In this document: positions 846-20,259 of the stretch, piece by piece | Layout: every line of letters starts with the position of its first letter | Numbering within the stretch: the stretch's first letter is position 1 | Assembly: GCF_036860695.1 (NCBI RefSeq) | Contig: NZ_JAYKGJ010000001.1 | Span: forward strand, 558,001 to 622,000 | DNA from: Rosettibacter firmus | GTDB lineage: Bacteria > Bacteroidota > Ignavibacteria > Ignavibacteriales > Melioribacteraceae | Length of the DNA stretch: 64,000 nucleotides | Direction of reading: 5' to 3' | Translations under genes and position numbers: made by a program | The notes under the pieces: model-generated | Database searches by the model: none | The model's input: the letters and a program-made list of their open reading frames with translations, nothing else | Told to the model about the DNA's origin: nothing

Positions 846-2018
846 TTATCTCAATAAAATCATTTTTTTGGTATCAATATATTTGTTACCAGTAAGTAAT
901 TGATAAAAATATACACCGCTTGAAAGATTTTCGGCATTAAATAAAATTCTATAATTATCAGGATTTTGATATGCATCAACAAGCGTACGAACTTTACAAC
1001 CCAATTCATCAAACAAAGTAAGTTTAACGTAAGTAGGTTCATCAATAGAATATGAAATTATTGTTGTAGAATTAAAAGGATTAGGATAATTATAGTTTAG
1101 ACGAAATGACTTTTGTGGGATTTTTTCTTTATCTCTAATATCAGTATAAATATTTTTTACTCTATAAACTGAATTACCTGATGTTACAAATAGAGTTTTT
1201 CCGTCTTCACCAAAACAACAATTTGTGGTTTGACCAGGGATAGGAATTGTATCAATTACACTTCCATCTGGACTAAAAATCCATATACCAGTTGGTCCAG
1301 AAGCAAATATAAAACCATATTTATCTACTTTCATTCCATCTGCATAACCTTGAGGAGGCATATAAGCAAACTTCTTTTTGTTTGTAATCATTGAATCATC
1401 AACCACATCCCATTCATAAATAGTTCTTGCTTCTGAATCACTTACATATAATTTTTTTTCATCAGGAGAAAAAGCAATTCCATTTGGTCGAGATAAAGTT
1501 TTATCAAGCAATTGTAAATTACCCTGTGGACTAATTCGATAAATTCCATAAAAATGAAGTTCTTCCTGACTGGAATTAATTCCATAAGGAGGATCAGTAA
1601 AGAAAATTGAACCGTCTGATTTCAAAGCAATATCGTTTGGACTATTCAATCTTTTACCATCATAATGTGTTGCAAGTGAAGTTAATTTACCATCTTTTTC
1701 TAATCTTGCAACCTGTCTTAATCCATGTTGAGCTAATAATAAATTTCCATTTTTGTCCAATGCCAATCCATTAGAATTTCCTGAAGGTCTTAAAAAAATT
1801 TTAATGCCCGAATCAGGAGCCCATTTATAAACTGTATTAGCTGGTATATCGCTGAACAATAAACTTCCATCTTTCCATACAGGTCCCTCAACAAACTGAA
1901 ATCCCCCTGCTATTATTTCTACAATAATTCCTTTTGAATTAATAATCTGAGCAATTGTAACAAAATTAATGAACAACAAAAAATATATTACCAATAAAAA
2001 AATTTTTAAAATTCTCAT
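846..2018 (-). CDS. Exported SMP-30/gluconolactonase-like protein with C-terminal sorting domain
   Basis: The 390-residue protein starts with a signal peptide (about residues 1-23, ending in IAQ). Residues ~30-290 form an SMP-30/gluconolactonase/LRE-like beta-propeller; typical family segments are FVEGPVWKDGSLLFSDIPAN, SPNDIALKSDGSIFFTDPPYG and RPNGIAFSPDEKKLYVSDSE. Residues ~305-390 are a type IX-like sorting domain with NYNYPNPFNSTTIISY and the terminal KKMILLR, predicting surface attachment or release through a type IX-like system. Family members hydrolyse sugar lactones, so a role on aldonolactones or lactone-containing oligosaccharides is plausible but not proven. The gene lies 17 bp after the BNR-repeat gene and 2 bp before the GH65-like gene. 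An AAAGG ribosome-binding sequence precedes the ATG. Confidence 0.85.
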   Translation of the reverse strand: MRILKIFLLVIYFLLFINFVTIAQIINSKGIIVEIIAGGFQFVEGPVWKDGSLLFSDIPANTVYKWAPDSGIKIFLRPSGNSNGLALDKNGNLLLAQHGLRQVARLEKDGKLTSLATHYDGKRLNSPNDIALKSDGSIFFTDPPYGINSSQEELHFYGIYRISPQGNLQLLDKTLSRPNGIAFSPDEKKLYVSDSEARTIYEWDVVDDSMITNKKKFAYMPPQGYADGMKVDKYGFIFASGPTGIWIFSPDGSVIDTIPIPGQTTNCCFGEDGKTLFVTSGNSVYRVKNIYTDIRDKEKIPQKSFRLNYNYPNPFNSTTIISYSIDEPTYVKLTLFDELGCKVRTLVDAYQNPDNYRILFNAENLSSGVYFYQLLTGNKYIDTKKMILLR

Positions 2019-2035: not shown

Positions 2036-4273
2036 TTAACGTAATAATATCATTTTCTTCGTTGAAGAATGTTGAGAATTTACGCTTAACTTATAAAAAT
2101 AAACACCTGAAGTTAGATTACTTCCATCAAAGTTTATATAGTAATTGCCAGCATTTTGAAATTGATTAACAAGTGTTGATATTTCTCTTCCAAGTACATC
2201 ATAAATTTTTAATATAACAAAGCCCCCTTCTGGAATTTGATAGCTTATTGTTGTAATTGGATTAAATGGATTAGGGTAATTTTGATTTAGAACAAATTCA
2301 TGTGGTACAGTATTTTCATTTGCAATATATACAGGATTTTTCAATTCAACTTTTGCATAACTAATTCCATCATACCATGTTCTTGTTATATCACCAGTTA
2401 ATGTTGAACTTGAACCTATTTTAGTTGCATCATCATCAATATATACATAAAATGATAAGCTATCTTTAACATCTAATCTTCCCAAATATGCTTGATATAA
2501 ATATAAATTATCTTGATTAACAATTATATTATTATTGTATTCATCTTTATTTACAGTGTGAGAAGCAATATGACGATAAGTCCACATATTATTCTTCGAT
2601 AATCCTGCTTTTATTCTCCAATCTGCAGAAGGATTTGCCCAGAAATTAATCCATACATCATAAATCCCTTTTTTAGAAACTGTAATTTCAGTCTTGAGCA
2701 TTTGTGCATTTTCTCCTCCCAATTCAGAAGATGTAAATATGGAATTATCATTGCCATAATCAGTTCGAAAATGCCATTTGTTATCTGCTTGTCCTGGATT
2801 AGAATCTGGTCCTGTAATAATAAATGGAGAACCATCTTCAAATGTAGTATTATTAATTGAAGCATCCACATAAAACTTTTTAGATAAAATTTCATCTTTA
2901 TTTTCAATTATTCCAACAATAACAGCATCATAATTTTGAGCTGAAGTATATGTGCCACGGCACCATATTAAGGCTAAGTTATTATTATTCCAGGCAGGAA
3001 CAATGGGTCTAATATTATCTCTTGATGAATTTTGAGTTATTGGTGTCCATTCCCAGGTTATTCCATTATCACTTGTAACACCTTTAAATATTTCTCGTAC
3101 ATTTAATTTAATTGTAGTATCACGAGGATCATAAGGAGATGAAATAAAAATTATATTGGGATCATCAGGACAAAGAGCTCCAAGTCCAACATAATCTGCT
3201 TCAGAATCATAAAATTTCAAACCAGCTTTATCTAAAAATGTGTAAGACCAATTATTACCATCATACCTGCAATAGATAAAAGCATGTTCAGGATTTACTT
3301 GATTATCTGGATATCCATAACTTACGCTTTGATTCATTCTTGCAGTAATAATTGCTGCAATTGTACCATCTTTATATCTAACCAGATCCGACTGCCAACA
3401 ACGATAAAATGTATTATTACCAATTTTAGTCCCGTTCTCAAATACTTTTGTAAAATGCCAGTATGCTGGAATAAATGTAGTATCATAAATATTTTCATCT
3501 ACAAGTGTACCATCTGATTTAAATGCTTTACCATCTTTGATGTAACCATGATATATACTTGTTAATGTATCTCTTGGATGTTGTTCTGTAAAAATAAAAT
3601 CTATTCTATCCTTTCCATTACTCCAGTATTTATAATAACCTTTATTATAAGAATTACTTGAATTAGTAGTTAATTGACCTCCCCATAACCATGTTGTTCC
3701 ATTATCATCAAAAATAATAAAATTAGGGGTACGATGATTTGCTCTTGAAAAATTGTATATTCTTTTTTCATCAGAAAGATAATATAAGTTATTATAGGCT
3801 ATTGTATAGTCTGTTCCACCAGGTCTTTTTGTCCAATCGTATGCCTGTTCTGGAGACCATATTTTACCATTAAAAATTCTATAACGATTTTTATACTTAT
3901 CATAATGGTCGGAATACATTGCAATATAATTTCCTTCAGCAGTAATTAAAAATGCCGGGGCATTATGATCATCATTACTTAACTTTGCTAAAAAATAGCG
4001 AACAGGGATTCTAAAATTATTATCAAAGATTACAGCTTCAATTGAGCTACTTCTTGAATTACCGCCAAAACCTGAGGGATTTGCAACACTTCCAAGAATT
4101 ATTTTTTTATTAATAGTATCAACTACACATCTTTCATCCTGAAACCAACACCATAAGCCATTATCATTAAATTGAATTAAGTTCCCTTGTACAATATCTC
4201 TCTGTAACTGTGCTAACAATAAATTCGAGATAATGATATTCACTAAAAATATTATCTTAATAAAAGTTTTCAT
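2036..4273 (-). CDS. Exported BNR-4 repeat protein with C-terminal sorting domain
   Basis: The 745-residue protein has a signal peptide (about 1-21, ending LLAQ). Residues ~30-460 match the BNR_4 propeller type: GLWCWFQDERCVVD at the start, the RSSSIEAVIFD segment, repeated aromatic-rich blades, and HAFIYCRYDGNNW. BNR_4 proteins occur among polysaccharide-active proteins and some propeller lyases have this fold, so it may bind or cleave a glycan; no catalytic residues can be named here. Residues ~485-670 look like a separate beta-sandwich, perhaps carbohydrate-binding. The last ~80 residues are the sorting domain (NYPNPFNPITTISYQIPEGG ... KKMILLR). It is 89 bp downstream of the URO-D methyltransferase gene on the same strand and 17 bp before the SMP-30-like gene. 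The substrate is unknown. Confidence 0.78.
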   Translation of the reverse strand: MKTFIKIIFLVNIIISNLLLAQLQRDIVQGNLIQFNDNGLWCWFQDERCVVDTINKKIILGSVANPSGFGGNSRSSSIEAVIFDNNFRIPVRYFLAKLSNDDHNAPAFLITAEGNYIAMYSDHYDKYKNRYRIFNGKIWSPEQAYDWTKRPGGTDYTIAYNNLYYLSDEKRIYNFSRANHRTPNFIIFDDNGTTWLWGGQLTTNSSNSYNKGYYKYWSNGKDRIDFIFTEQHPRDTLTSIYHGYIKDGKAFKSDGTLVDENIYDTTFIPAYWHFTKVFENGTKIGNNTFYRCWQSDLVRYKDGTIAAIITARMNQSVSYGYPDNQVNPEHAFIYCRYDGNNWSYTFLDKAGLKFYDSEADYVGLGALCPDDPNIIFISSPYDPRDTTIKLNVREIFKGVTSDNGITWEWTPITQNSSRDNIRPIVPAWNNNNLALIWCRGTYTSAQNYDAVIVGIIENKDEILSKKFYVDASINNTTFEDGSPFIITGPDSNPGQADNKWHFRTDYGNDNSIFTSSELGGENAQMLKTEITVSKKGIYDVWINFWANPSADWRIKAGLSKNNMWTYRHIASHTVNKDEYNNNIIVNQDNLYLYQAYLGRLDVKDSLSFYVYIDDDATKIGSSSTLTGDITRTWYDGISYAKVELKNPVYIANENTVPHEFVLNQNYPNPFNPITTISYQIPEGGFVILKIYDVLGREISTLVNQFQNAGNYYINFDGSNLTSGVYFYKLSVNSQHSSTKKMILLR

Positions 4274-4362: not shown

Positions 4363-5400
4363 CTATCCATTAATAAAATTTTTGACTGTTTCGATAAAAG
4401 TAAGAATATTGTCTGTTGAAACACCAGGAGGCATTCCTCCACCACACGATAAAATTATTCTCGAACGATCTTTTAAAGAATTTATTAAATCCTCGGTAGC
4501 TTTTTTAATATCTTCCTGAGTACCATTTGCAAGTACATCTCTTGGGGGAATATTTCCAACAAGTGTAATTTTATTTTGAGTAAGTTCTTTTAATTCGTTT
4601 AATGTAACATCGAAACCCATATTAAAAAGATTGATTCCCATCTCGGGCAAAAAAGGAGCAGAGACTTTACATGGTGCATCATTATGTAAAAATTTTACAG
4701 AAACATTTAGACTAAATAATTCTTTAAAATAAGGAAGACCAAATTCTTTGAATTCATTTTCTCCCATAAATCCAATAATATCGTCGAGCAAAAAAATTCC
4801 ATCAATAGTTGGAAAAGTTTTCATTTGAAGTTGAAGCCAATCTTTAAGATAATCTGTGATTTTTCTTAAAAGCAGGTGAGCTTTATCCGGTTGCATCATT
4901 ATTGTTGTAAGGAATTCAGTAGTGCCCATTAAATAGCTGGCGATATTTAGTGGACCACGTGCTACAGCAAATCTAATTTTATGTCCAGCATCTTCGATTC
5001 TGGGCTGCATAATTTTTAATCGATTTAAAACTAATGGTAATAATCCATCAGTTTCGGGATTTGGTTGTTCAAGCGAATCAATATCATCTGTTGAACGAAT
5101 TATTTTGTGAGCAAATGGAAATTCATCTGGAGGGAAAGTGCATTTTACACCAAATGCCGATGGTTCTGTACACATTCCAAATTCTGACCAGAAGCCAGGC
5201 AGAAAAATTACATCCGGGAAATTATTAATTGCTTTTAAGTTTGCTTTAAACCAGAGTTCTTCACTCGAAAAGTATTCAATAATTTTAATGCCATACCAAT
5301 TTGGTAGCCATGGACTATCAATTATAAATGCCATTGGTAAAGGATCAAAGATTTCGCCATTGATAATTCTTTTTAATTTTTCCCATTGTTGATCTGTCAT
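4363..5400 (-). CDS. URO-D-family corrinoid methyltransferase
   Basis: The 345-residue cytoplasmic protein belongs to the uroporphyrinogen decarboxylase superfamily (MtaA/CmuA-like). These TIM-barrel enzymes move methyl groups between a corrinoid protein and a thiol, or demethylate a substrate. The zinc-site pattern of the methyltransferase branch is recognisable: H239 and C244 in FLHNDAPC and C319 in LSCGGGMPPG. True heme-pathway URO-D enzymes lack these cysteines. It is the last of four genes (corrinoid protein, homocysteine methyltransferase, B12 reactivase, this one), 32 bp after the reactivase gene, with GGAG eight bases before the ATG. I infer that it demethylates a methoxylated compound onto the neighbouring corrinoid protein; the substrate is not shown by the sequence. 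The GH115 context suggests a methylated sugar or its breakdown product. Confidence 0.8.
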   Translation of the reverse strand: MTDQQWEKLKRIINGEIFDPLPMAFIIDSPWLPNWYGIKIIEYFSSEELWFKANLKAINNFPDVIFLPGFWSEFGMCTEPSAFGVKCTFPPDEFPFAHKIIRSTDDIDSLEQPNPETDGLLPLVLNRLKIMQPRIEDAGHKIRFAVARGPLNIASYLMGTTEFLTTIMMQPDKAHLLLRKITDYLKDWLQLQMKTFPTIDGIFLLDDIIGFMGENEFKEFGLPYFKELFSLNVSVKFLHNDAPCKVSAPFLPEMGINLFNMGFDVTLNELKELTQNKITLVGNIPPRDVLANGTQEDIKKATEDLINSLKDRSRIILSCGGGMPPGVSTDNILTFIETVKNFING

Positions 5401-5432
5401 TTTATTTCTCCATAAATTTTTATTATTAGTGA

Positions 5433-6170
5433 TCAGTCAATATGTTTTTTAGATTTATTCCTTGATATTATCTTTCTATAAGTGCAATCACTAATTCCAC
5501 ATTTATCACATAAATAATTTTTCCACTTTGCTTTTTTTCCAATTCCAATTATTCCACTTATTGATTTAACAGGAATCATTAGTGAAGATTCAGTTAATTT
5601 TACTCCACAAAAATTCCGGGGAAGAAGTGAAAATAACTTTTGCTGCTCAGAAACATCCCAATTACAATATCCGGGACTATAGCGATTGGTTACATTTAAT
5701 CCAAAGTTTTTCATTTTACTTTTAATATAATCATGCAGAACATCTGCAATCTTTTCTGTTGCTTCTGAAGCAGTTATATCTACCAGATAACTTAATAGAG
5801 TTTCTCCTTTTTCATTTAGTTCTTTAATCCATTTATCTATTTCAAATCCTGCTGTTAAAATAAAAACAGCTACACTTTCTATTTTACCTAATTGTGTTGT
5901 AACAATTTTACCAGTTTTAAAAAAAGTTCTGGAAATAAAGAAGCCCTCTTTATTATCTAATAATTTATAATCATCAATTATTTTATAGCCTGCTCTAATG
6001 TTTAATTTTTTTTTAATGTCACTTAGAACATTATCGAGCATTAAATCAAAATGCTCTGGTAATGAATTATATCCAAGTATCTCAATAATTCGATTTTTCT
6101 CTATATGAATTAATTCTGGACTTATATTCAATTCATAAGTATTATAATCGATTTCATTTTCTTTAATCAT
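5433..6170 (-). CDS. Stand-alone B12-dependent methionine synthase activation domain protein
   Basis: The 245-residue protein matches the SAM-binding activation domain of MetH, which reductively remethylates inactive cob(II)alamin. The diagnostic segment NRYSPGYCNWDVSEQQKLF is present near residues 160-180, followed by SSLMIPVKSISGIIGIG. The C-terminus carries a cysteine cluster (CDKCGISDC near residues 220-228) of the kind seen in short stand-alone versions. It lacks the other MetH modules, which are encoded next door as separate proteins. Its ATG overlaps the TGA of the homocysteine methyltransferase gene by 4 bp (ATGA), a sign of translational coupling. It is expected to keep the corrinoid protein of this cluster active. 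Confidence 0.87.
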   Translation of the reverse strand: MIKENEIDYNTYELNISPELIHIEKNRIIEILGYNSLPEHFDLMLDNVLSDIKKKLNIRAGYKIIDDYKLLDNKEGFFISRTFFKTGKIVTTQLGKIESVAVFILTAGFEIDKWIKELNEKGETLLSYLVDITASEATEKIADVLHDYIKSKMKNFGLNVTNRYSPGYCNWDVSEQQKLFSLLPRNFCGVKLTESSLMIPVKSISGIIGIGKKAKWKNYLCDKCGISDCTYRKIISRNKSKKHID

Positions 6171-7054
6171 TTAATATTCCTGACTACATTAGCAATAGCT
6201 GAAATATGAGCAGGAGTTGTTCCACAACATCCACCAATAATATTAGCACCGCTTTCAATTAATAGTTGAACTTTAGAAGCCATGAAATCAGGAGTTTCGG
6301 GAAAAACAGTAATACCATCTTTAAAAATTGGTTTACCAGCATTAGCATGAACCAAAATCGGGATTGAATTATCTACAGTTCTTATTTCCTGAACAATCTC
6401 AATCATCTGATCGAAACCATTACCACAATTAGTTCCAATAATATCTACTCCAGCTTCTTTAAGTGCTATTGTCATTTCAGTTGGAGAGACACCCATCATT
6501 GTTCTATATTCACCAGTCAATGTTTTTTCAAATGTAAATGTACAGATTACTGTCAGGTTTGTATTTTCTTTTGCGGCTTTTACTGCTAATTTAGCTTCGT
6601 CGATATCAGACATAGTTTCGATTAATATTGCATCAGCACCTCCAGCTTTAAGAGCAGTAGCTTGAATCTTAAATCCCTCATAAATTTCATCTTCCGAAAT
6701 TTCTCCCATCATTAATAAAATACCAGTTGGACCAATAGAACCAAGCACATAATGATTATCACCTGCTGCTTCTCTTGAAATTGATGCTGCAGCAAAATTA
6801 AGTTCAGCAGTTTTTGATTCCAGACCATAATGTTTTAACTTGATTGGATTAGCACCAAAACTATTTGTTAAAATCATATCTGCACCAGCATCTACATAAC
6901 TCTTTGCTATTTCAAATACAACATCACGATGTGTTATATTCCATAACTCTGGACATTCACCTGGTTGCAATCCTTTACTCTGGAGAAAAGTTCCCCATGC
7001 CCCATCAGATATAAGTATTTTATTTTCTTTTAATAATTCAATTAGTGTTTTCAT
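6167..7054 (-). CDS. Homocysteine S-methyltransferase (MetH N-terminal module)
   Basis: The protein (295 residues from the start chosen here) is a zinc-dependent homocysteine methyltransferase of the BHMT/MetH-N type. Zinc ligands are visible as C210 in GTNCGNG and the pair C276-C277 in GGCCGTTP. The N-terminal ISDGAWGTFLQ and TNSFGAN segments are family hallmarks. An in-frame ATG exists at 7069, but GGAG lies 5 bases upstream of the ATG at 7054 and would be inside the coding part of the longer form, so I use 7054. It should transfer methyl from the adjacent corrinoid protein to homocysteine, giving methionine. No pterin-binding (methyl-THF) module is encoded in the cluster, so the donor side is probably the URO-D protein. 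The gene is 66 bp after the corrinoid gene. Confidence 0.9.
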   Translation of the reverse strand: MKTLIELLKENKILISDGAWGTFLQSKGLQPGECPELWNITHRDVVFEIAKSYVDAGADMILTNSFGANPIKLKHYGLESKTAELNFAAASISREAAGDNHYVLGSIGPTGILLMMGEISEDEIYEGFKIQATALKAGGADAILIETMSDIDEAKLAVKAAKENTNLTVICTFTFEKTLTGEYRTMMGVSPTEMTIALKEAGVDIIGTNCGNGFDQMIEIVQEIRTVDNSIPILVHANAGKPIFKDGITVFPETPDFMASKVQLLIESGANIIGGCCGTTPAHISAIANVVRNIK

Positions 7055-7120
7055 TAAATTCTCCAACAAATATGATATTTTTTCATCATCTAAATCACAA
7101 TTCTATTAATTCTACAAAAA

Positions 7121-7789
7121 TTAATTACATCTCAAACTTTCCAAAAAGTCGACTGCACTTTGTGGATTAGGTCCGTATGCATCTGCTCCCATTTTTTCTG
7201 CTGCTGCTTCTGTTAATGGTGCACCACCCACAATTATTTTAATATCAGGGAAATGTTGTTTAATTTCTTTAACTGTAAGTGCCATATTTTGCATTGTAGT
7301 TGTAAGTAATGCACTAAGACCAACAACAGAATCTGGATTTTGTTTTATCACATCAAGAAATTTTACTGGTTTAACATCAACGCCGAGATCAATCACATCA
7401 TAACCATTCCCTTCAACAACCATGCTTACAAGATTCTTACCAATATCATGTAAGTCACCAGCAACTGTTCCAATAATGAATTTCCCTTTTTTCTCTACTA
7501 TGCCTTTTTGAAAATATGGTTTTAGATGATTCATAACTGCCTGCATTGCTTTTGCAGCCATAAGTAATTCAGGTACAAAAACTTCGTTACGACTAAACTT
7601 ATCTCCTATTCTTTTCATTCCTACATTGCATGCATCGAGAATTTCAAATGGTTGAAGACCTGCTTCTAAGGCTTTCAATGTTAATTCGTCTGCACCTTCC
7701 TGTCCTTTCATATCAGGTGGATAAGGAGATGATAAATTAACTTTCCCCCTTTCAGTGCAAAGTGTTATACGATTAATTAACTCTTCCAT
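7121..7789 (-). CDS. Corrinoid (B12-binding) methyl carrier protein
   Basis: The 222-residue protein has the two-part architecture of MtaC/MtbC-type carriers: a helical B12-binding-2 cap (about residues 10-95) and a Rossmann-like B12-binding domain (about 100-222). The base-off cobalamin motif DLHDIG (D112, H114, G117) supplies the lower cobalt ligand. The later SALLTTTM and VGGAPLTEAAAEKMGADAY segments complete the fold. It heads a four-gene set whose other members can load it with a methyl group, unload it onto homocysteine and reactivate it. The 211 bp upstream of it, down from the GH43 stop, probably contain its promoter, but I could not identify a convincing one. A GAGG ribosome-binding site precedes the ATG. 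Confidence 0.92.
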   Translation of the reverse strand: MEELINRITLCTERGKVNLSSPYPPDMKGQEGADELTLKALEAGLQPFEILDACNVGMKRIGDKFSRNEVFVPELLMAAKAMQAVMNHLKPYFQKGIVEKKGKFIIGTVAGDLHDIGKNLVSMVVEGNGYDVIDLGVDVKPVKFLDVIKQNPDSVVGLSALLTTTMQNMALTVKEIKQHFPDIKIIVGGAPLTEAAAEKMGADAYGPNPQSAVDFLESLRCN

Positions 7790-8000: not shown

Positions 8001-9677
8001 TTACTTATAAATTTCATCATTGCCTTTATATTCAAACCAATCATAAATAACTCTGGAATTACTTGGTTTCCCAAGTGAAGTTGCATATAAACCAAATACT
8101 GAACCAACAAATCCACCTGCCACCTTTGTACTTAAAAATGTTCCATCAACATTATCTTCGAGTAGATTTAATTTATCTTTGTCAAATCCATAATAAAAAG
8201 AATAATCTTTCCCTTTTGCATCAATTTTTAGAATAATATCATTATTCATATATCTTTTGTCCAGTACATTTTCTTTTATCAAATCCATATTTTTGTTGTT
8301 TGTAGATTTATAAAGTTGAATAACTTCTCTGTTATCTTTAATTGATTTACATAAATAATAAAAATGATTTTCATTTTGAAAAATTATTAAACCTGCTTTT
8401 TCATTTTCTGATTTTGCATTAAAACTCATTTTTACAATTGCAGAACAATTTTGATGTTGCTGACGATGTGCTATAAAACTTGGATTTGATTTACCAGAAC
8501 AAGTTTCAGTTCTTAGATTAATAATCAATTTACCATTCTCAATCTTATACCATTTTTCAAGTGGAGTTCTTAAGAAGATCCAGTCTTTTGCTAATTCCGA
8601 ATTATTAAAATCATCATAAATAGTAAAGTTACCTCCATATTTTCGATGTGCAAATTCTTTAAATGGTTTTAAAGGATATGGATAAGTGTATTGAACCTCT
8701 TCAAAATCAGGATTAATTACAGGCCAGCCATCAATCCATTTTACTGGTGCTAAAAATGTTTCTCTTCCTGTGTTAAAAAAATTTTCTTCATATGGTTTAT
8801 ATGGTCGACAACCTAAAAATACAGCCCACCAATCTCCATTTTGTGTTTCAACAAAATCTGCGTGTCCAGTTGATGTAACAGGATAATCTCTTTTAGGATT
8901 AAGATGACGTTGAGTTAAAATTGGATTTTTATCATAAGAAATATAAGGACCATCAACTTTCAAACTTCTAAAAACAACTTCTGAATGCTGTTCAGCTGTT
9001 CCTCCTTCTGCACAGATTAAATAATAATAACCATCTTTTTTGAAAATATGTGGACCTTCAATCCATACAGGTTTTTTAGTTATATCTGTTCCACCGTTAA
9101 CAAGTATTTTTTCTTCTCCTATAACTTTCAAATTCTCAATATCAAATTCATACATTCTAATTGTTCGATGACCATCATAAAGAGGTTTATTATCTGGAGC
9201 TACACTGTTATAAATTATATATGCTTTACCATCATCATCGAAAAATAACGAAGGATCAATTCCATTTATTTCTGGAATCCATACAGGATTTGACCAGGGT
9301 CCAGCAGGATTTTTTGCAGTAACTATAAAATTACCACCTGCATCGACAAGTGTACATGTTACATAAAATATTCCATTGTGATAACGAATAGCAGGTGCAA
9401 AAACTCCCCTTGATACGCCAAGCCCATTTAAGTTTGCCTGTTCAGGTCTATCAAGCACATGTCCAATTAATTTCCAGTTTACAAGATCTTTACTTTGAAA
9501 AACAGGAATACCAGGAAAATATGCAAATGTAGAATTAACCAGATAATAATCTTCACCAACTCTACAAATACTTGGATCTGGATAAAATCCTGCGAGAATT
9601 GGATTGAAAAATTTTTCTTGAGCTAATGTTCTATTTAATGATAATATCAACAATAAATACAAAATAATATTTCTCAT
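8001..9677 (-). CDS. Exported GH43 beta-xylosidase / alpha-L-arabinofuranosidase
   Basis: The 558-residue protein has a signal peptide (about 1-19, ending TLAQ) and no sorting domain, so it is probably periplasmic. The five-bladed GH43 propeller starts at once with the catalytic base D34 in FYPDPSI; the pKa-modulating D141 lies in GIDPSLFFDDDG and the acid E207 in WIEGPHIFK. Residues ~345-555 form the C-terminal beta-sandwich typical of GH43 xylosidases (DDFNNSELAKDW ...). GH43 enzymes of this type remove xylose or arabinose from xylo-oligosaccharides or arabinoxylan. It is 82 bp downstream of the GH115 gene and fits the xylan theme. Xylosidase and arabinofuranosidase specificity cannot be separated by eye. 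Confidence 0.93.
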   Translation of the reverse strand: MRNIILYLLLILSLNRTLAQEKFFNPILAGFYPDPSICRVGEDYYLVNSTFAYFPGIPVFQSKDLVNWKLIGHVLDRPEQANLNGLGVSRGVFAPAIRYHNGIFYVTCTLVDAGGNFIVTAKNPAGPWSNPVWIPEINGIDPSLFFDDDGKAYIIYNSVAPDNKPLYDGHRTIRMYEFDIENLKVIGEEKILVNGGTDITKKPVWIEGPHIFKKDGYYYLICAEGGTAEQHSEVVFRSLKVDGPYISYDKNPILTQRHLNPKRDYPVTSTGHADFVETQNGDWWAVFLGCRPYKPYEENFFNTGRETFLAPVKWIDGWPVINPDFEEVQYTYPYPLKPFKEFAHRKYGGNFTIYDDFNNSELAKDWIFLRTPLEKWYKIENGKLIINLRTETCSGKSNPSFIAHRQQHQNCSAIVKMSFNAKSENEKAGLIIFQNENHFYYLCKSIKDNREVIQLYKSTNNKNMDLIKENVLDKRYMNNDIILKIDAKGKDYSFYYGFDKDKLNLLEDNVDGTFLSTKVAGGFVGSVFGLYATSLGKPSNSRVIYDWFEYKGNDEIYK

Positions 9678-9759: not shown

Positions 9760-12639
9760 TCATTTTCTTATTTTGCTATTAAAACTTTCAGGTGGTCCGA
9801 GGTAACTTTGTTTTAAACCACCTGTATCAATAACAATTTTTTGTAAAACAATACCGGGATCTATCATCCAGATTTTTAATGTATGTTTTCCAGAGTTTTT
9901 AATTTTATGTACAGAAGTTTGTATGTTAATATTATCTGCTACCCATCTATTCCACACAGGATCACGATTCAAATCTGGTGGATTGGGATTTGATGTTAAA
10001 TTAAATACTTTTGGCTCGTCGTTATCAAAAGAAACTGCATAGTGGATTCCATCAGAATTGTGAGTAAAATTCAGTGTTGGAGAAAAATATAAATTAACTT
10101 TTACTTCACCAGTGGTAAAAAGATAAACATTATATTCTAAGTGAGGGCTATCTTCACTTAATTGCTGTCTTGGCGAAGTACCAGGTTTAATTGAAATGCC
10201 AGATGAAGTTCTACCAAGATTTGGGATTACAATCCATTCAATATTATCTTTATTAATAGCATTCGAGAAATGTTTAGATTCTATTGATACATATCCATTA
10301 CTTTCAATAAAACAATGTTCATTAGAAATTTCAGGAATAGATATATTATTAATTGATACATTAATGATTATCTTCTTTCCATTCCCTTCAACATAAATTT
10401 TTGAACTACTTTTTCCTGCAGGAGCTTTATTCCAGTCAATAGAAACCCAAATTCTTTTTTCTGTTTCAATTCTTCCTTTTAGCTCATTTACTTTAATATA
10501 AGAATCTTTTGTACTAACAGAATAATCAAACGGCAATTTGCCTTTGTTAAAAATTTCGATGTAGTATTTTTGTTTATTGAAAACATCAAATTCAGGTAAA
10601 GTAGCTTCTTCGTTTCCTTTGGGATAGCAAATTTCAGATCCTTCTACAACTAAACCCATTTCAGCTTTATCAGGTACATCTATTATTTCTACAGAAGGCA
10701 TGTAATTTTTATCAGGTTGTTGCCAGTAAGTATAACCGATATGAGTTTGAGACATCATGTGATTCCATTTTCCATTTCCGAGTTTATGATATTTTTCTGT
10801 TATTAATGAATCTTTCTCAAATAACTTTTTTGCATATTCTGCAAGTTTATTGGTTAAAACTCTTCCCTGTTTTGCATATAATCTGTTTTTTGCAACTACA
10901 TAATAAAGTTCATTTAGATTTGCAGAAGCTTCAACAGGATGAAGAACAAGTTGATAATAAGCATCTTTATATTCAGCAGGGATTTTTTCATAAATATTTT
11001 TTGCTTTTAGTAATAAATCATTGTAATCATTTACAATTGTTTCAAACTCTCTATAATTTATAAGACTATAAGTTTCTGGAGAAAGTAATTCAGGTTTTCT
11101 TCTGGAATTAAATTTTGTATACTTATTTAAAATGTAACCAATATCATTTGAGAATTTTTCACCAAATTGTTTTGCAGCCCAGTTAACAGAATAAGTAGAT
11201 AATTTTTCAAGCGGGATTGCTTCTGGATTCCATGCATAATCAAGGAAAAAGCTAATAGGAAATTCCATAGGTTTAATATCACCAACATTAACAACCCATA
11301 TTTGTCTTGCACCATATTCGTATGCAAGATGCATTTGTTCCCAGACTCTTTCAATTTGGTTTGTATTTAACCACTTATAATTTCTTGGTCCACCCACATA
11401 ATCGTAATGATAGTAAATGCCATATCCACCCTTACGAGGTTTTTCTTTTAGATCAGGCAACTTTCGAATATTGCCCCAGTTATCATCACATAAAAGCAAT
11501 GTAACATCATCTGGAACTTTCATTCCCTTTTCATAATAATCCTGAACTTCTTTATATAGAGCCCATACTTGAGGAATTTCTTCTGGATTTTTACCTGTAA
11601 CTTCTTTTAAAATTTTTCTCTGATCATTAACAATTCTTTCAAGTAAAGCAATATTAGATTCTTCACTCATTGGTTCATCGCCATCACCACGCATTCCAAT
11701 TGTAACTATACTTTCATAAGATTTATTTCTTTTAATTCCTTCTCGCCAGAATTCTCTGAGCACGCTATCATTTTTTTCATAATTCCATGGACCTTTACCA
11801 AATTTAGACCATTCAACATGAGCACGCATCATTGGCTCGTGATGCGATGTACTTATTACAATTCCATATTCATCAGCTAATTTTGGATTGAGTGTGTCAT
11901 CGACAAAAAATGATTTCCCCCACATTGCAGGCCAGAGGAAATTACCTTTAAGTCTAAGAATTAATTCAAAAACTTTTTCATAAAACTTTGAATTAAATCC
12001 GCCAAACTTTTCGTAAGCCCAATCAGTTAAAGCAGGAGCTTCATCATTAATAAAAATGCCACGATATTTGATTTTTGGTTCACCTAATGTATACTTACCC
12101 GCTTTAAAATAAATGTTTGATTTCTTTTTAATCGGTACATCTGCCCACCAGTACCATGGTGAAACACCAATTTGTTCTGCTAAATCATATAAGCCATAAA
12201 TAGTACCACGCTTATCACTTCCAGCAATAATCAGGATTTTCTTGACATCAAATAAATTTCCATCAACTGTTTGAATAATAAATTTTTCCCATTTTCCTTT
12301 TAATTCTTTTTCATCTATAATTTTTGCATCAACAAGTTTATCAATAAATGGATTTTTACCTATTGTTCCAGCAATTATAATTTCGTCTGAGTCTGGAATT
12401 TTATCTTCAAAAATTTCTGGTTTTATACCTGTTACTTTATAAATATCTTCCTGTAAATGTTTTACTACTCTAATTACACCTGGAAAATCTTGCGAACTAT
12501 AAATTATTGGAGCAGATTTTTTATTCGATGATATTGTAAAGGATGCTTCAGATTTTTTAGTGGTAATGTAATTATTTTGAGGAAGAAGTTTTATTGTGAT
12601 TAAAAAAAGTATTAAAAAAGTTTTAGTAATAGATTTCAT
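9760..12639 (-). CDS. Exported GH115 xylan alpha-1,2-glucuronidase
   Basis: The 959-residue protein carries a signal peptide (about 1-20) and has the length and layout of GH115: an N-terminal alpha/beta domain (~25-180), the catalytic barrel (~185-480) with YRGIFINDEAPALTDWAYEK, GNFLWPAMWGKSFFVDD and VTLLLCDDNWGNIRKLP, a helical region (~480-650), and a C-terminal GH115_C-like beta domain. GH115 enzymes remove alpha-1,2-linked D-glucuronic acid or 4-O-methyl-D-glucuronic acid from xylan, including from internal xyloses. This gene is the strongest indication that the locus targets glucuronoxylan. It starts 11 bp after the GH8 gene and is followed by the GH43 gene. No sorting domain is present, suggesting a periplasmic location. 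Confidence 0.94.
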   Translation of the reverse strand: MKSITKTFLILFLITIKLLPQNNYITTKKSEASFTISSNKKSAPIIYSSQDFPGVIRVVKHLQEDIYKVTGIKPEIFEDKIPDSDEIIIAGTIGKNPFIDKLVDAKIIDEKELKGKWEKFIIQTVDGNLFDVKKILIIAGSDKRGTIYGLYDLAEQIGVSPWYWWADVPIKKKSNIYFKAGKYTLGEPKIKYRGIFINDEAPALTDWAYEKFGGFNSKFYEKVFELILRLKGNFLWPAMWGKSFFVDDTLNPKLADEYGIVISTSHHEPMMRAHVEWSKFGKGPWNYEKNDSVLREFWREGIKRNKSYESIVTIGMRGDGDEPMSEESNIALLERIVNDQRKILKEVTGKNPEEIPQVWALYKEVQDYYEKGMKVPDDVTLLLCDDNWGNIRKLPDLKEKPRKGGYGIYYHYDYVGGPRNYKWLNTNQIERVWEQMHLAYEYGARQIWVVNVGDIKPMEFPISFFLDYAWNPEAIPLEKLSTYSVNWAAKQFGEKFSNDIGYILNKYTKFNSRRKPELLSPETYSLINYREFETIVNDYNDLLLKAKNIYEKIPAEYKDAYYQLVLHPVEASANLNELYYVVAKNRLYAKQGRVLTNKLAEYAKKLFEKDSLITEKYHKLGNGKWNHMMSQTHIGYTYWQQPDKNYMPSVEIIDVPDKAEMGLVVEGSEICYPKGNEEATLPEFDVFNKQKYYIEIFNKGKLPFDYSVSTKDSYIKVNELKGRIETEKRIWVSIDWNKAPAGKSSSKIYVEGNGKKIIINVSINNISIPEISNEHCFIESNGYVSIESKHFSNAINKDNIEWIVIPNLGRTSSGISIKPGTSPRQQLSEDSPHLEYNVYLFTTGEVKVNLYFSPTLNFTHNSDGIHYAVSFDNDEPKVFNLTSNPNPPDLNRDPVWNRWVADNINIQTSVHKIKNSGKHTLKIWMIDPGIVLQKIVIDTGGLKQSYLGPPESFNSKIRK

Positions 12640-12650
12640 TTTTTAATCCT

Positions 12651-13919
12651 TCATTTACAAATATTTTTTTTAAGATCATCAGGAATATAAATTTGAAAAT
12701 TTCCACTTACCTGCAATAATGCTAATAGATAAAGCATACCATCATAATATCTTCCCTGTCCTTCTGGTACAGGTAAATTCCAGAGTTCTTCTACAAATTC
12801 TTTTCTATTATCATTAGTTGAAGCAAGTGCAGCAACTGCGTTCATAGATATTAATCCAGTACTTCTATTATTCGACAATGGCTTTCCATCCAATGTATAT
12901 AAATCAGGATATTCTTTAATACCTTTGGAATAGAAAAAATTCAGTAATCTATTTGATTGTTCTACTGCCCATTTATCTTTAGCAAACCATAAATAATCAG
13001 TAGCAATATTCATTGCAACACGCCATGCATCGTATTGAAAATTATTATTACCACCACCCCATGGATTAAATGGTGTACCATCGAACTTTGAATAGTCTGG
13101 TGCTAATCCAGTTTCGGGATGAACTGCTTTTTTTAAAAAATCTCTACTAACTTTAGCAACGTCGCACCAGAAATCTCTGTTTTTATTGTCGTAGATTGCC
13201 CATAGTTCATAAAAATGAGGAACATGATAAGAGGGATCTGTAAAATCATCAGCTTCGCCTGCAGGAACAAAAACAACTTGTTTTACTTTTTTATTAAACA
13301 TGTTTGTAACAACTTTTCTACTATCTGAAGAATCAATTTTAGTGAGCATAGCATTTAATATTTTCAAAGCTTCAGATTTATAATTGAAAATTCCTTCTCC
13401 ATCACCCCATCTTGCAGAAGCCAAAAGCAAAGCTGTTACAAACCATTCTTCGCCATCCGAAGCAGAATTTGAATCAATTATTTCTCCATTTGTTTTACAG
13501 TGCCATGCAAAATAATCTTTTCGTTGTCCAGATTTATGTTGCATAAATGTTTTTGCCCATTTCCATAATCTATCAAACTCTTCTTTTTTATTCAGCTGCA
13601 CAGCTATCATCATTCCGTATGACATTCCTTCTGTTCTAACATCATTATGAAGAATATCTTCTATATATGCCATATCATTTTCAACAGGATAATACACACG
13701 TTGATTTTTATCATCACCATAGAATAATTGTTGAAATGCATTATCAATTTTTGCTTTTACTTCTAATTCACTTTTATGCAATAAATCAACAAACAGGTTC
13801 GGATATTTATTTGTAAAAAATGCTCCTTTAGAATTTTCTTGTGCAAATAGTGTGTGAAGTTTTGATGAGTAAAGAAAAAAAGTCAATAAAAGAATTGATA
13901 AATAAATTTTGAGTTTCAT
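12651..13919 (-). CDS. Exported GH8 reducing-end xylose-releasing exo-oligoxylanase
   Basis: The 422-residue protein has a signal peptide (about 1-27, ending LFAQ) and a GH8 (alpha/alpha)6 barrel. E97 in RTEGMSYGMM is the expected catalytic acid, and D297 in FQYDAWRVAMN sits at about the right distance to be the base. SNSASDGEEWF is another family signature. The overall pattern resembles Rex enzymes, which release xylose from the reducing end of xylo-oligosaccharides, more than endo-glucanases; the presence of GH43 and GH115 genes supports this. It lies 172 bp downstream of the symporter gene, with a strong terminator-like hairpin in the gap, so it may be expressed by read-through or from its own promoter. 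Confidence 0.9.
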   Translation of the reverse strand: MKLKIYLSILLLTFFLYSSKLHTLFAQENSKGAFFTNKYPNLFVDLLHKSELEVKAKIDNAFQQLFYGDDKNQRVYYPVENDMAYIEDILHNDVRTEGMSYGMMIAVQLNKKEEFDRLWKWAKTFMQHKSGQRKDYFAWHCKTNGEIIDSNSASDGEEWFVTALLLASARWGDGEGIFNYKSEALKILNAMLTKIDSSDSRKVVTNMFNKKVKQVVFVPAGEADDFTDPSYHVPHFYELWAIYDNKNRDFWCDVAKVSRDFLKKAVHPETGLAPDYSKFDGTPFNPWGGGNNNFQYDAWRVAMNIATDYLWFAKDKWAVEQSNRLLNFFYSKGIKEYPDLYTLDGKPLSNNRSTGLISMNAVAALASTNDNRKEFVEELWNLPVPEGQGRYYDGMLYLLALLQVSGNFQIYIPDDLKKNICK

Positions 13920-14091: not shown

Positions 14092-15483
14092 CTAACTTGT
14101 TCTTCTTGCAGCAAGTTCTGCTTCAATTTTTTCCATCATTTTATTATTAAGAGGATACATCATCATTAACAAACCACCTATCAAACCAGTAATAGCTGGA
14201 TAGAAACTCATTAACAATTTAATCCCAGTGATTGTCTCTAATGTTTGTTCCTGATTTGCGACAAATCCATAATAAGCTAAAAGCCAGCCAACTATTGCAC
14301 CACCAAGTGTTAGACCAAGTTTAAGAGAAAATAAAGATGCAGCCATCACCAATCCTGTTGCACGTCTACCATTTTTCCATTCAGAGTAATCAGCTGTATC
14401 GGTATACATAGCCCATTGTAGAACTGAAACTGGACCCAGAGCAAACGAGATGATAAGATTTAATAAGTAGATTATTAGAACATCCTGTGGTTTTAGAATA
14501 TAAAATAAAGCACAAAATACCGAGCTGATTATTAAAGCACCTGCATAAGTATTTTTCTTATCAAATCTCTTGGCAAACCATTTAGTTAGAATTGCACCTA
14601 AGATTGTGATTATAGTTCCTGAAAGCATAAATGAAGAAGCTAAAACATCAAAAGAAAGTTCTCCTTTCCAGAAGAAAATATTTAAATGTTGGTTTTTCAC
14701 ATAATATTTGAAATAATACATTATCGAAGAATTACGAATTACAACATATAATAACTGGAATACAGTTGCACCAGCAATTAATAACCAGGGCTTATTATGA
14801 ATTAAATCTTTCAAGTCCTGCTTAAAATTACTTTTTTGTTCTTTAGGAGGATAAACTCTTTCTTTGGTTGTTAAGAAAGTAATTAAAAATAATATAACAG
14901 CAAGAACAGAAAGACAACCCATAGCCCATTGCCATCCAAGTGCATCATTTCCCTTTCCAAAATATTTTACTAATGACATTGTTGAAGCCTGAACAATTAA
15001 GCCTCCAACAAAAGCAGCAACAAATCTAAAAGAAGATAATTCTGTTCTTTCAAGAGAATTAGGAGTAATAACACCCATAAGTGCTGAATAAGGAACATTA
15101 ACTGCTGTATATGCCATCATTAAAAAGTTATAAGTTACATAAGCATAAATTAATTTCCCGGTTATATCAAAGTTAGGAGTTGTAAAAGTTAGAACACCCA
15201 TAATTCCAAATGGAATAGATGCCCATATTAAGTAAGGTCTAAATTTACCCCATCTTGTATTTGTACGATCTGCAATAGTCCCCATAATCGGATCATTAAC
15301 AGTATCCCATATTCTCGTAATTAAAAACATTGTTCCAACAGCTGCTGCAGGAAGTCCAAATACATCAGTGTAAAAGTACATTAAGAAAAGCATGAATGTC
15401 TGGAAATACAAATTTGAAGCAGTATCTCCAAGACTGTAACCTATTTTTTCTTTTAAGGAAAGTTTTTCTTGAGTTGTTTGCAC
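14092..15483 (-). CDS. GPH-family (MFS) glycoside/pentoside/hexuronide cation symporter
   Basis: The 463-residue integral membrane protein has about 12 hydrophobic segments and the GPH family N-terminus (EKIGYSLGDTASNLYFQ), with the conserved loop WDTVNDPIMGTIADRTNTRWGKFRPY. The TDTADYSEWKNGRRATGLV segment in the second half is also typical. GPH symporters import xylosides, other oligosaccharides or hexuronides with H+ or Na+; here xylo-oligosaccharides or (methyl)glucuronate are the likely cargo. The start codon is GTG at 15483, supported by GAGG six bases upstream. It is the first gene of the minus-strand glycan run. A promoter overlapped by a LacI-type operator lies 170-210 bp upstream. 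Confidence 0.92.
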   Translation of the reverse strand: MQTTQEKLSLKEKIGYSLGDTASNLYFQTFMLFLMYFYTDVFGLPAAAVGTMFLITRIWDTVNDPIMGTIADRTNTRWGKFRPYLIWASIPFGIMGVLTFTTPNFDITGKLIYAYVTYNFLMMAYTAVNVPYSALMGVITPNSLERTELSSFRFVAAFVGGLIVQASTMSLVKYFGKGNDALGWQWAMGCLSVLAVILFLITFLTTKERVYPPKEQKSNFKQDLKDLIHNKPWLLIAGATVFQLLYVVIRNSSIMYYFKYYVKNQHLNIFFWKGELSFDVLASSFMLSGTIITILGAILTKWFAKRFDKKNTYAGALIISSVFCALFYILKPQDVLIIYLLNLIISFALGPVSVLQWAMYTDTADYSEWKNGRRATGLVMAASLFSLKLGLTLGGAIVGWLLAYYGFVANQEQTLETITGIKLLMSFYPAITGLIGGLLMMMYPLNNKMMEKIEAELAARRTS

Positions 15484-15792: not shown

Positions 15793-16827
15793 TTAGTTTT
15801 TGTTTAAAACTTTAGTTGATTCTCTAATTATTAATTCTGTTTCGAGAACAACCTTTTCAACCGGAAGGAGTGTATTTGATTCAATATTCCGAATTAATAT
15901 TTCAGCTGCTTTTCTACCTATTTCTCTCTGTGGTGCTCTAATAGTTGTTAAAGGGACAGGATAAATTTTAGCATAAAAGATGTCATCATTTCCAATAATT
16001 GAAATATCGTCCGGTACTTTTATATTTAATTCTTTCAATGCGAGTATTACTGAAAGTGCCTGTAAATCATTAAAACATACAATTGCTGTTGGATAATCTT
16101 CTCTACTTTTATTGCTAAAATATTCAATTGTTCGTTTAAAACTTTCTTCGTAATCACTTCCTACTGGAACTATCATATCTGGATGGAAAACAAGTGTACT
16201 TTCACTAAAAGCATGTCTGAATCCTTCAATTCTTTCTTGAGTATGGGATGACTGAGGAGGACCAGCAAAGTGAACAATTTTTGTATGTCCACTATCTATA
16301 AGATACTTAACTGCATTTTTAATTGCTTTCAAATTATCGATTGCAACTACATTTGCTTGAATACCTTTTACATCTTCAAGTAAAACAAATGGGAAATTAA
16401 GCATCTTTAGATTAAACAAATGTTCAATTTCTGCTGTGCCTTCTACAATTGGAGCAATAATTGCTCCTTTAATATCTTTAGTTGAAAATAAATGAGAGAA
16501 TTTCTTTTCGCTTTCGTGATCGTTTTCTGAACTTGTTATAATAACAGAATATCCTTTACTATTAGCATATTCCTTAACACCTGATGCTATTGCAGTATAA
16601 AAAGGATAATTTAAATCTTTGATTATAATTCCAATACTTTTATCCTGTACTCCATTCTTTAAATTCCTTGCAACACCTTTCGGTCTAAAATTCATTTCTT
16701 TCATTACTTTTAAAATATGATCACGTGTCTCTGGCTTTACTGTGTTCTTACCATTGATAACGGCAGATACTGTCCCTTTCGATACACCAGCTTTTTTGGC
16801 AACATCAACTATAGTAATTCTTTTCAT
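15793..16827 (-). CDS. LacI-family transcriptional regulator
   Basis: The 344-residue protein begins with a LacI helix-turn-helix (ITIVDVAKKAGVSKGTVSAV) and hinge helix (RPKGVARNLKNG, near residues 52-63), followed by a periplasmic-binding-protein-like effector domain to the C-terminus (GIIIKDLNYPFYTAIASGV; ISIIGNDDIFYAKIYPVPLT). It is probably a local repressor that responds to a xylan-derived sugar or uronate. Palindromes with a central CG lie 29 bp upstream of its own start (16856-16869) and in the symporter promoter (15652-15665), suggesting autoregulation plus control of the glycan operon. AGGAA precedes the ATG. It is transcribed divergently from the lectin-like gene at 17489. Confidence 0.93.
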   Translation of the reverse strand: MKRITIVDVAKKAGVSKGTVSAVINGKNTVKPETRDHILKVMKEMNFRPKGVARNLKNGVQDKSIGIIIKDLNYPFYTAIASGVKEYANSKGYSVIITSSENDHESEKKFSHLFSTKDIKGAIIAPIVEGTAEIEHLFNLKMLNFPFVLLEDVKGIQANVVAIDNLKAIKNAVKYLIDSGHTKIVHFAGPPQSSHTQERIEGFRHAFSESTLVFHPDMIVPVGSDYEESFKRTIEYFSNKSREDYPTAIVCFNDLQALSVILALKELNIKVPDDISIIGNDDIFYAKIYPVPLTTIRAPQREIGRKAAEILIRNIESNTLLPVEKVVLETELIIRESTKVLNKN

Positions 16828-16855
16828 TTAAAATTCCTATTTCACAATTGTACAA

Positions 16856-20124: not shown

Positions 20125-20259
20125 TTTATAACCCACCATTTTTAATTGGTTATATGAAAATAAAAAAATAGTTAACCTAATTCATCTATTAAAAATAAAA
20201 AGGGATGGAATATTCAAAGAAGAAATGTTCATGAAAATTATTAAAGTGAACTTATAATT

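Follow-up and report, generated by a model that had tools for sequence, protein, structure and literature searches.

The subject of this study is a set of four adjacent genes in a 64,000-nucleotide stretch of the Rosettibacter firmus genome (bases 558001-622000 of contig 1; genome size, 3.24 Mb), which is called the window hereafter. The set probably encodes a corrinoid-dependent O-demethylase that works without oxygen and takes the 4-O-methyl group off 4-O-methyl-D-glucuronate (MeGlcA), with methionine as the methyl sink. Open reading frames (ORFs) were called mechanically, and domains were assigned by the profile cut-offs of Pfam and NCBIfam. A preliminary description, made from the DNA letters alone, had claimed four adjacent same-strand genes for a B12 carrier, a homocysteine methyltransferase, a B12 reactivase, and a URO-D-type methyltransferase. 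It was found that ORFs lie exactly at 4363-5400, 5433-6170, 6167-7069, and 7121-7789, all on the minus strand, and that all four identities have Pfam matches above cut-off. The ORF at 4363-5400, UROD1, is a URO-D-fold methyltransferase (PF01208, 134.7 bits; cut-off 23.9) and the proposed MeGlcA:corrinoid O-demethylase (MT1). The ORF at 5433-6170 encodes a MetH-type activation protein, or reactivase, presumed to re-reduce and re-methylate the corrinoid (PF02965, 57.3 bits; cut-off 25). The remaining two encode a homocysteine S-methyltransferase (HMT; PF02574, 245.2 bits; cut-off 22), proposed to be the methyl-corrinoid:homocysteine transferase, and a corrinoid (B12) carrier protein (PF02310, 87.4 bits; PF02607, 57.9 bits).

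From the observed gene content, gene order, domains, co-occurrence, and predicted fold, I infer the following substrate, pocket, direction, chemistry, and end product. GH115 and GH67 alpha-glucuronidases would free MeGlcA from glucuronoxylan. In a polar pocket rich in Trp, UROD1 would bind MeGlcA after import, either as such or as the derived ketose or aldonate, and would assist the attack on the methyl group by cob(I)alamin, which is carried by the 7121-7789 protein. The demethylated sugar acid would then be processed by UxaC, a mannonate oxidoreductase, and UxuA, and the 6167-7069 enzyme would move the methyl group from methyl-cobalamin to homocysteine to yield methionine. The 5433-6170 protein may rescue oxidised cob(II)alamin in the manner of the MetH activation domain. 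In effect, the set would be a MetH in split form, with a sugar-ether-cleaving URO-D enzyme in place of the folate module.

The evidence that carries this reading is the co-occurrence of UROD1 with alpha-glucuronidases. In a sample of 245 genomes of the window's class (Ignavibacteria), UROD1 and a divergent form, UROD1b, were called at E<=1e-60. The genomes are related and thus not independent, for which the genus count given below is a partial correction. UROD1 or UROD1b was found in 28 of the 245 genomes (21 and 7, respectively). GH115 was found in 24 genomes, and all 24 are among these 28, against none of the 217 negative genomes (Fisher 2e-29). The preliminary description had proposed to look for co-occurrence of the four genes with GH115 and uxuA. 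GH67, an unrelated alpha-glucuronidase family, occurs in 23 genomes, comprising 21 of the 28 positive genomes versus 2 of the 217 negative ones (2e-22). Either family is present in 25/28 versus 2/217 genomes, and at the genus level, UROD1 is present in 16 genera, which include all 15 genera with GH115. Is UROD1 linked to MeGlcA release or to xylan in general? The GH10 xylanase served as a control; it occurs in 39 genomes, which comprise 26 of the 28 positive and 13 of the 217 negative genomes. Within these 39, GH115 is present in 24 of the 26 positive genomes versus none of the 13 negative ones (p 1e-8), and of 13 GH10 genomes lacking both GH115 and GH67, only one has UROD1. Thus, the link is to MeGlcA release and not to xylan as such, and a link to xylan in general was rejected. 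The genes are also physically close. In 13 of the 28 genomes, GH115 or GH67 lies on the same contig within 10 kb of UROD1 or UROD1b (G000, G009, G033, G070, G366, G506, G518, G522, G527, G535, G538, G555, and G565; G-numbers denote sampled genomes), versus about 0.3 expected by a hand estimate from 53 GH115/GH67 matches in 28 genomes of ~3.7 Mb (P 2e-17). The opposite outcome named in the preliminary description, a set lying mostly away from glycan loci, was not seen in the window's class.

In the window itself, the genes upstream of the set on the same strand encode a GH43 beta-xylosidase-type enzyme (8001..9677; PF04616, 313.6 bits), the GH115 alpha-glucuronidase for MeGlcA release from xylan (9760..12639; PF15979, 529.4 bits; PF17829, 215.6 bits), a GH8 xylanase-type enzyme (12651..13919; PF01270, 112.5 bits), a sugar/hexuronide:cation symporter of the GPH family as a possible importer (14092..15483; TIGR00792, 427.7 bits; cut-off 231), and a LacI-family regulator (15793..16827; PF00356, 62.4 bits). 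The GH43, GH115, and GH8 neighbours had been pointed out before, and Pfam bears them out. The uxuA gene for mannonate dehydratase, which had been placed farther up, is indeed present on the same strand (20260..21453; TIGR00695, 527.7 bits; cut-off 199.6), but it is about 12.5 kb from the set, with an alpha-L-fucosidase gene (18838-20139) and others in between. UxaC is also encoded in the genome.

The surroundings of UROD1 were compared among its relatives. Genes in the stretches fetched around matches (L-numbers) were labelled by phmmer matches to proteins of the window or its relatives; the labels were checked with Pfam on representatives only, and some gene names were read by eye, with support from labels on the same contigs where available. 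UROD1 was found in 9 of 58 genomes, the window's own included, at 71-100% identity, and the remaining URO-D matches scored below 80 bits. In all seven other orthologous loci with room (L033 and L036-L041), GH115 stands beside UROD1 together with GH43, GH8, or GH10; in the eighth orthologue genome (G002), UROD1 is on a short contig. In L037, the locus of genome G009, genes for GH10, GH115, GH43, the corrinoid protein, HMT, the activation protein, and UROD1 were found, with a second URO-D gene, UROD2, one gene further. G009 appears to be the cultured Melioribacter roseus P3M-2, and the reading is therefore testable. A xylan cluster that includes a CBM4/9 GH10 (Mros2091) was described in the genome paper of M. 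roseus, whose accessible text makes no mention of corrinoid or methionine (PMC3534657). Among the GTDB species genomes, 473 UROD1 relatives were found by scanning, and the best 80 were kept; contig ends cut many of the flanks short, and 5 kb or more is available on each side in 34 of the 80. With a 20-stretch set that holds the UROD1b loci, 100 loci were available. The nearest UROD1 sequences among the named loci in the best 80 of the 473 are from metagenome-assembled genomes (MAGs) of Melioribacter sp. (90 and 88% identical). GH67 was confirmed by Pfam in six UROD1 loci, one match being weaker. The uxuA gene and an SDR gene are next door in L038, L040, and L041; overall, uxuA is in 9 of the 80 and 3 of the 20 UROD1 stretches, and some loci also have an adjoining SDR gene and an MFS transporter gene, labelled exuT by hand, for which Pfam gives MFS_1 only. 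In L068, L071, L073, L079, L134, and L135, an SDR gene lies just upstream of UROD1, in the position that the corrinoid, HMT, and activation genes occupy in other loci.

UROD1 belongs to the URO-D superfamily, as its PF01208 score indicates. It is not HemE, since it scores 69.2 bits with the NCBIfam hemE equivalog model (cut-off 302.95), and it also falls below the NCBIfam MtaA/CmuA subfamily cut-off (77.6 versus 235.4 bits). A structure model was made from an alignment of 84 rows (70 UROD1, 6 UROD1b, and 8 UROD2) with a pLDDT of 95.3; it replaced an earlier model from 9 rows (pLDDT 69), which was too weak. The model matches URO-D-fold entries at Z 28.9-32.3, and the best of them, Methanosarcina mazei MtaA (4ay7, Z 32.3), is tied with HemE (Z 31.6). 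A search of the PDB with A1 at E<=1e-12 gave no match. The preliminary description had credited the URO-D protein with an intact H/C/C zinc pattern. The defining zinc site of the MtaA/CmuA type is presumably H-x-C ... C. At the triad columns, H239, D241, and G321 were found in 70/70 UROD1 and 6/6 UROD1b sequences versus H/C/C in 8/8 UROD2 sequences, and a profile alignment to M. mazei MtaA (4ay7) puts D241 and G321 of UROD1 opposite its cysteines. An intact triad of the MtaA type in UROD1 was thus ruled out; the triad sits in UROD2, just outside the window. Two cysteines of UROD1, C244 and C319, are offset from the zinc columns and are present in 65/70 and 67/70 UROD1 but in 0/6 UROD1b sequences. 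Zinc need not be present in UROD1, since one URO-D methyltransferase, CdmB, works without it according to the available text (PMC13222342). Thirteen residues, D28, W31, W71, E73, R127, R148, D206, D207, H239, N240, D241, N257, and N260, are invariant in 70/70 UROD1 and 6/6 UROD1b sequences and mostly differ in UROD2. They are candidate pocket residues; Arg for the carboxylate and Trp, Asp, and Asn for the sugar would fit a uronic acid.

The four-gene set corresponds to the homocysteine, B12, and activation modules of MetH in split form (PF02574, PF02310/PF02607, and PF02965), the last match being partial; of the 273 positions of PF02965, the match to the activation protein covers only 116-253, namely the C-terminal half. 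The protein's C..C.{2,4}C cysteine motif is conserved in 26/26 distinct homologues of the 100 loci, and this C-terminal cluster is perhaps an Fe-S or metal site. The start of the activation ORF overlaps with the stop of the HMT ORF, which was listed with a TTG start, an ATG at 7054 being possible. HMT carries the NCG...GGCCG cysteines; NC[GS] was found in 31/31 distinct homologues of at least 280 residues, and the GGCC[GNS] motif reads GSCC in six UROD1b-associated homologues. The B12 motif DxHxxG is present in 33/33 distinct homologues of the corrinoid protein from the 100 loci, and the window's protein is under the NCBIfam MtgC_2 cut-off (171.2 versus 370 bits). As had been noted before, no pterin-binding module is found in the set; PF00809 is absent from all four proteins, and thus no acceptor transferase of that family is present there. 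Genome-wide, PF00809 was found only in a full-length MetH of 1236 residues, encoded elsewhere, and in one gene that is DHPS by NCBIfam (306.6 bits; cut-off 162.6), so that the genome is without a stand-alone methyl-tetrahydrofolate (methyl-THF) transferase. Since the set lacks the pterin module and the genome has a complete MetH, methyl-THF is an unlikely donor, in agreement with the earlier suggestion of another methyl donor. Another idea was that of a disguised methionine synthase, with UROD1 as a substitute for the folate module. It was rejected because of the complete MetH and because UROD1b and a PF00809 transferase share one cluster in L130 and L131. A search of the window for a RACo-type activator gave none, and a PF02965 protein is present instead.

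UROD1 genomes score 540-730 bits (21 genomes) and UROD1b genomes 272-286 bits (7 genomes), and the two forms never occur together in one genome at E<=1e-60. Despite this mutual exclusion, both were found with alpha-glucuronidases. Several of the UROD1b loci (L122, L123, L124, L125, L130, L131, and L132) have the corrinoid protein and HMT; in L122 and L123, the gene order is GH67-GH10-GH115-GH43-UROD1b-corrinoid-HMT. Pfam checks of the UROD1b clusters revealed a PF00809 transferase (L130 and L131), MTHFR with a DUF5981 tail (L123 and L131), and RACo (L124 and L131). The model nearest to the PF00809 protein of L131 is that of the methyl-THF:corrinoid/Fe-S protein methyltransferase, at 120 bits, below its cut-off of 259. 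These clusters combine known O-demethylase parts with a folate exit, which puts the URO-D protein on the donor side. The folate branch in some related sets also means that methionine is not the sole methyl sink in the family.

Beyond the class, the tree of the best 80 of the 473 relatives spans ten named phyla: Ignavibacteriota, Bacteroidota, Spirochaetota, Fibrobacterota, Verrucomicrobiota, Fidelibacterota, Calditrichota, Thermodesulfobacteriota, Planctomycetota, and Caldifarciminota. The tree was made by FastTree only, and all of these wider relatives are from MAGs, so that binning errors may account for single cases. GH115 or GH67 is present in the fetched stretch of 28 of the 80 loci. The share is 16/31 at 70% identity or more (11/14 where 5 kb is available on both sides), 9/24 at 65-70% (7/12), and 3/25 below 65% (2/8). 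The link thus appears tight near the window and looser with distance, as would be expected if substrates diverged.

Several observations weigh against the reading of MeGlcA demethylation to methionine. Within the class, both GH115 and GH67 are missing from 3 of the 28 UROD1 genomes, G406, G529, and G541. Partner genes are locally missing even among the close orthologues (HMT in L040 and the activation gene in L038), and UROD1 stands alone in L039. Only two of the seven UROD1b loci (L122 and L123) have GH115 or GH67; L125 and L131 have GH10 only, and L124, L130, and L132 have no xylanolytic label. Outside the class, 44 GH115 genomes in a sample of 395 genomes of the phylum have no UROD1 at E<=1e-60, and the demethylation step is therefore dispensable or accomplished in another way there. 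Of the 52 loci without a local alpha-glucuronidase, 50 were looked up genome-wide (L042 and L120 were left out); the enzyme is encoded elsewhere in 28 of these UROD1 genomes and is missing from the other 22. The latter include a spirochaete clade (L099, L102, and L103), in which the HMT and activation genes are kept in genomes without GH115 or GH67. Nine Bacteroidota loci at 67% identity or less (L088, L090, L093, L096, L101, L107, L109, L115, and L118) have DUF6807, mostly with GFO/IDH oxidoreductases, and in the clade of L096, L101, L107, and L115, the genomes lack GH115 and GH67, which suggests another methylated substrate. Strict MeGlcA specificity across the whole family is not supported. 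There are also chemical and quantitative difficulties. Because the leaving group is an alkoxide, cob(I)alamin should react poorly with sugar methyl ethers, and the metal or acid site of UROD1 is only putative. The supply of MeGlcA on xylan should far exceed the need for methionine, and methionine alone may therefore not be the sink. The earlier proposal of MeGlcA demethylation coupled to methionine formation is supported by comparative genomics, but some relatives have a folate branch, and outside the class, the link is looser or lost altogether in certain branches. As a separate observation, the spirochaete operon reads corrinoid-HMT-activation-UROD1 (the corrinoid gene was not seen in L103), and a leucyl-tRNA-synthetase-like gene was read by eye near by.

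Sequence alone does not decide whether the substrate is free MeGlcA, the ketose or aldonate derived from it, methanol, or ferulate. In the UxaC-UxuB-UxuA chemistry, the O4 of glucuronate that carries the methyl group corresponds to the O3 of mannonate, the oxygen eliminated by UxuA. UxuA might therefore expel methanol instead of water from 3-O-methyl-mannonate, and the set would then use the methanol. This route would agree with uxuA in the window and in 9 of the 80 and 3 of the 20 stretches, and would explain how the 44 GH115 genomes without UROD1 manage. It is nevertheless unlikely. The known methanol enzyme, MtaB, is to my knowledge of another family, UROD1 is a URO-D protein with many conserved polar and aromatic residues, and methanol is free to diffuse away. 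An aromatic methyl ether, such as ferulate from feruloylated xylan or lignin fragments, would be a donor of the kind used by MtvB, VdmB, or MtoB. Aromatic ethers are known substrates of URO-D O-demethylases in the available texts (PMC8630106; PMC13222342), and a CE1-like esterase follows UROD1 in some loci (Pfam Esterase for L041). However, the CE1-like label was found in only 7 of the 80 and 3 of the 20 stretches (with one query and cut flanks), and UROD1 tracks alpha-glucuronidases and not GH10. In addition, the A3 profile, which covers rows of UROD1, UROD1b, and UROD2, scores higher with MtaA/HemE (86.2 bits) than with CdmB (41.1 bits), the one relative of the aromatic enzymes compared. An aromatic donor is improbable.

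There is also a small chance that the donor is some other O-methyl sugar of plant or algal glycans with which MeGlcA is merely correlated. The 22 of 50 relatives without any GH115 or GH67, and those that sit with DUF6807 and GFO/IDH oxidoreductases, speak for such a donor, but in the window's class, the tie is specific to GH115 and GH67, two unrelated glycosidase families. A second methionine synthase, or a cluster for methyl-S/Se salvage like the mlp clusters, would need no tie to sugars at all. The components are MetH-like, and URO-D-type Mlps with corrinoid proteins were proposed for such salvage, as far as the accessible text goes (PMC10418091). This explanation seems very unlikely, because it leaves the GH115 co-occurrence unexplained, a complete MetH is encoded elsewhere, and UROD1 has no thiol-type H/C/C triad and does not reach the MtaA/CmuA cut-off given above.

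The locus extends beyond the window on the same strand. Just left of window base 1 are a gene for UROD2 with an HICG...GC motif (L031:14236-15261, minus strand) and one for a DUF362 protein with a tail of the type IX secretion system (T9SS) (L031:15313-16701, minus strand), both of which the preliminary description had missed. UROD2 was found at 200 bits or more in 9 of the 80 and 6 of the 20 UROD1 stretches. Among the close relatives, it is present in the window genome, L033, L037, and L038, as a fragment in L041, and on another contig in G002 (L035). UROD2, a canonical H/C/C URO-D protein, is to be counted as part of the locus. Since the MeGlcA supply should exceed the methionine need and UROD2 keeps the thiol-type triad, it is a possible overflow sink; my guess is that it passes surplus methyl groups to another thiol as a second methyl sink.

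Directly after UROD1 is a gene for a secreted 745-residue protein with a T9SS tail (2036..4273, minus strand). It had been called a BNR-repeat gene, but Pfam at E<=0.001 gives the T9SS sorting domain only (PF18962). Further downstream is an SMP-30/gluconolactonase-type protein with a T9SS tail (846..2018, minus strand; PF08450, 170.3 bits). An SMP-30-like protein near UROD1 was also read by eye in L033 and L034, and the SGL label was found in L042 and L043. A 706-residue protein lies across the window edge (window 1-843; L032:723-2843). Its start resembles a signal peptide, its only match, to GH65, is below threshold (20.7 bits; cut-off 27), and a similar N-terminus is present in the same locus of L034. 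A LacI-type palindrome shared by the set and the xylan genes gained no support, as only two matches were found in 22.5 kb, at 5014 inside UROD1 and at 16855 by the LacI gene. A promoter scan of the locus was uninformative (16 sites versus 24 expected).

How does the set compare with known systems? Like the three-component aromatic O-demethylases (MtvABC, OdmABCD, VdmB, and MtoABCD), it clusters a URO-D MT1, a small corrinoid protein, an acceptor transferase, and a reactivation protein, and some UROD1b clusters resemble those of acetogens and other three-component systems also in the PF00809 transferase, MTHFR, and RACo. Unlike them, the window set lies in an alpha-glucuronidase locus, has a homocysteine acceptor enzyme and a MetH-type activator instead of RACo, and would use an alkyl (sugar) ether. 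The MtgBCD system for glycine-betaine demethylation and the split MetH of Ruegeria pomeroyi likewise send catabolic methyl groups via a separate corrinoid protein toward methionine, according to the available text (PMC12478193). There, the donor and the MT1 (by name) are different; the window's corrinoid protein is under the MtgC_2 cut-off, and a full MetH exists beside the set. UROD1 shares its fold with MtaA, MtbA, CmuA, and the Mlp clusters (PMC10418091, as far as accessible) but differs from MtaA, MtbA, and CmuA in lacking the H/C/C triad, which is present in UROD2, and in falling below the NCBIfam cut-off. In marine bacteria, a P450 demethylates 6-O-methyl-D-galactose oxidatively, and thus also takes a methyl ether off a polysaccharide-derived sugar (PMC10033563, in its available text). 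Unlike that monooxygenase route, which yields formaldehyde, the proposed route would be anaerobic and would keep the methyl group. The preliminary description had held that no such route was established for methylated uronic acids; likewise, no route for the anaerobic removal of the 4-O-methyl group of MeGlcA, corrinoid-dependent or other, was found in the open-licence literature among the matches listed, to the extent that those texts were available.

There is roughly an even chance that UROD1 and UROD1b are the first members of a new enzyme class, spread over ten named phyla, that demethylates sugar methyl ethers anaerobically. In this class, the thiol-zinc H/C/C site would have turned into an H-N-D site that, with residues of Asp, Glu, Arg, and Trp that never vary, could prepare an unactivated alkyl ether for attack by cob(I)alamin, the methyl group would go to homocysteine or folate, and some branches may serve other methylated sugars. 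In wood xylan, a glucuronate side chain is carried by about one in ten xylose residues, according to the available text (PMC3921138). Corrinoid enzymes are known for aromatic ethers. If the proposal is true, their reach would extend to alkyl sugar ethers, and the gap between the alpha-glucuronidases and the uxu pathway in anaerobic wood and xylan use would be filled. It would also link xylan breakdown to methionine or one-carbon metabolism.

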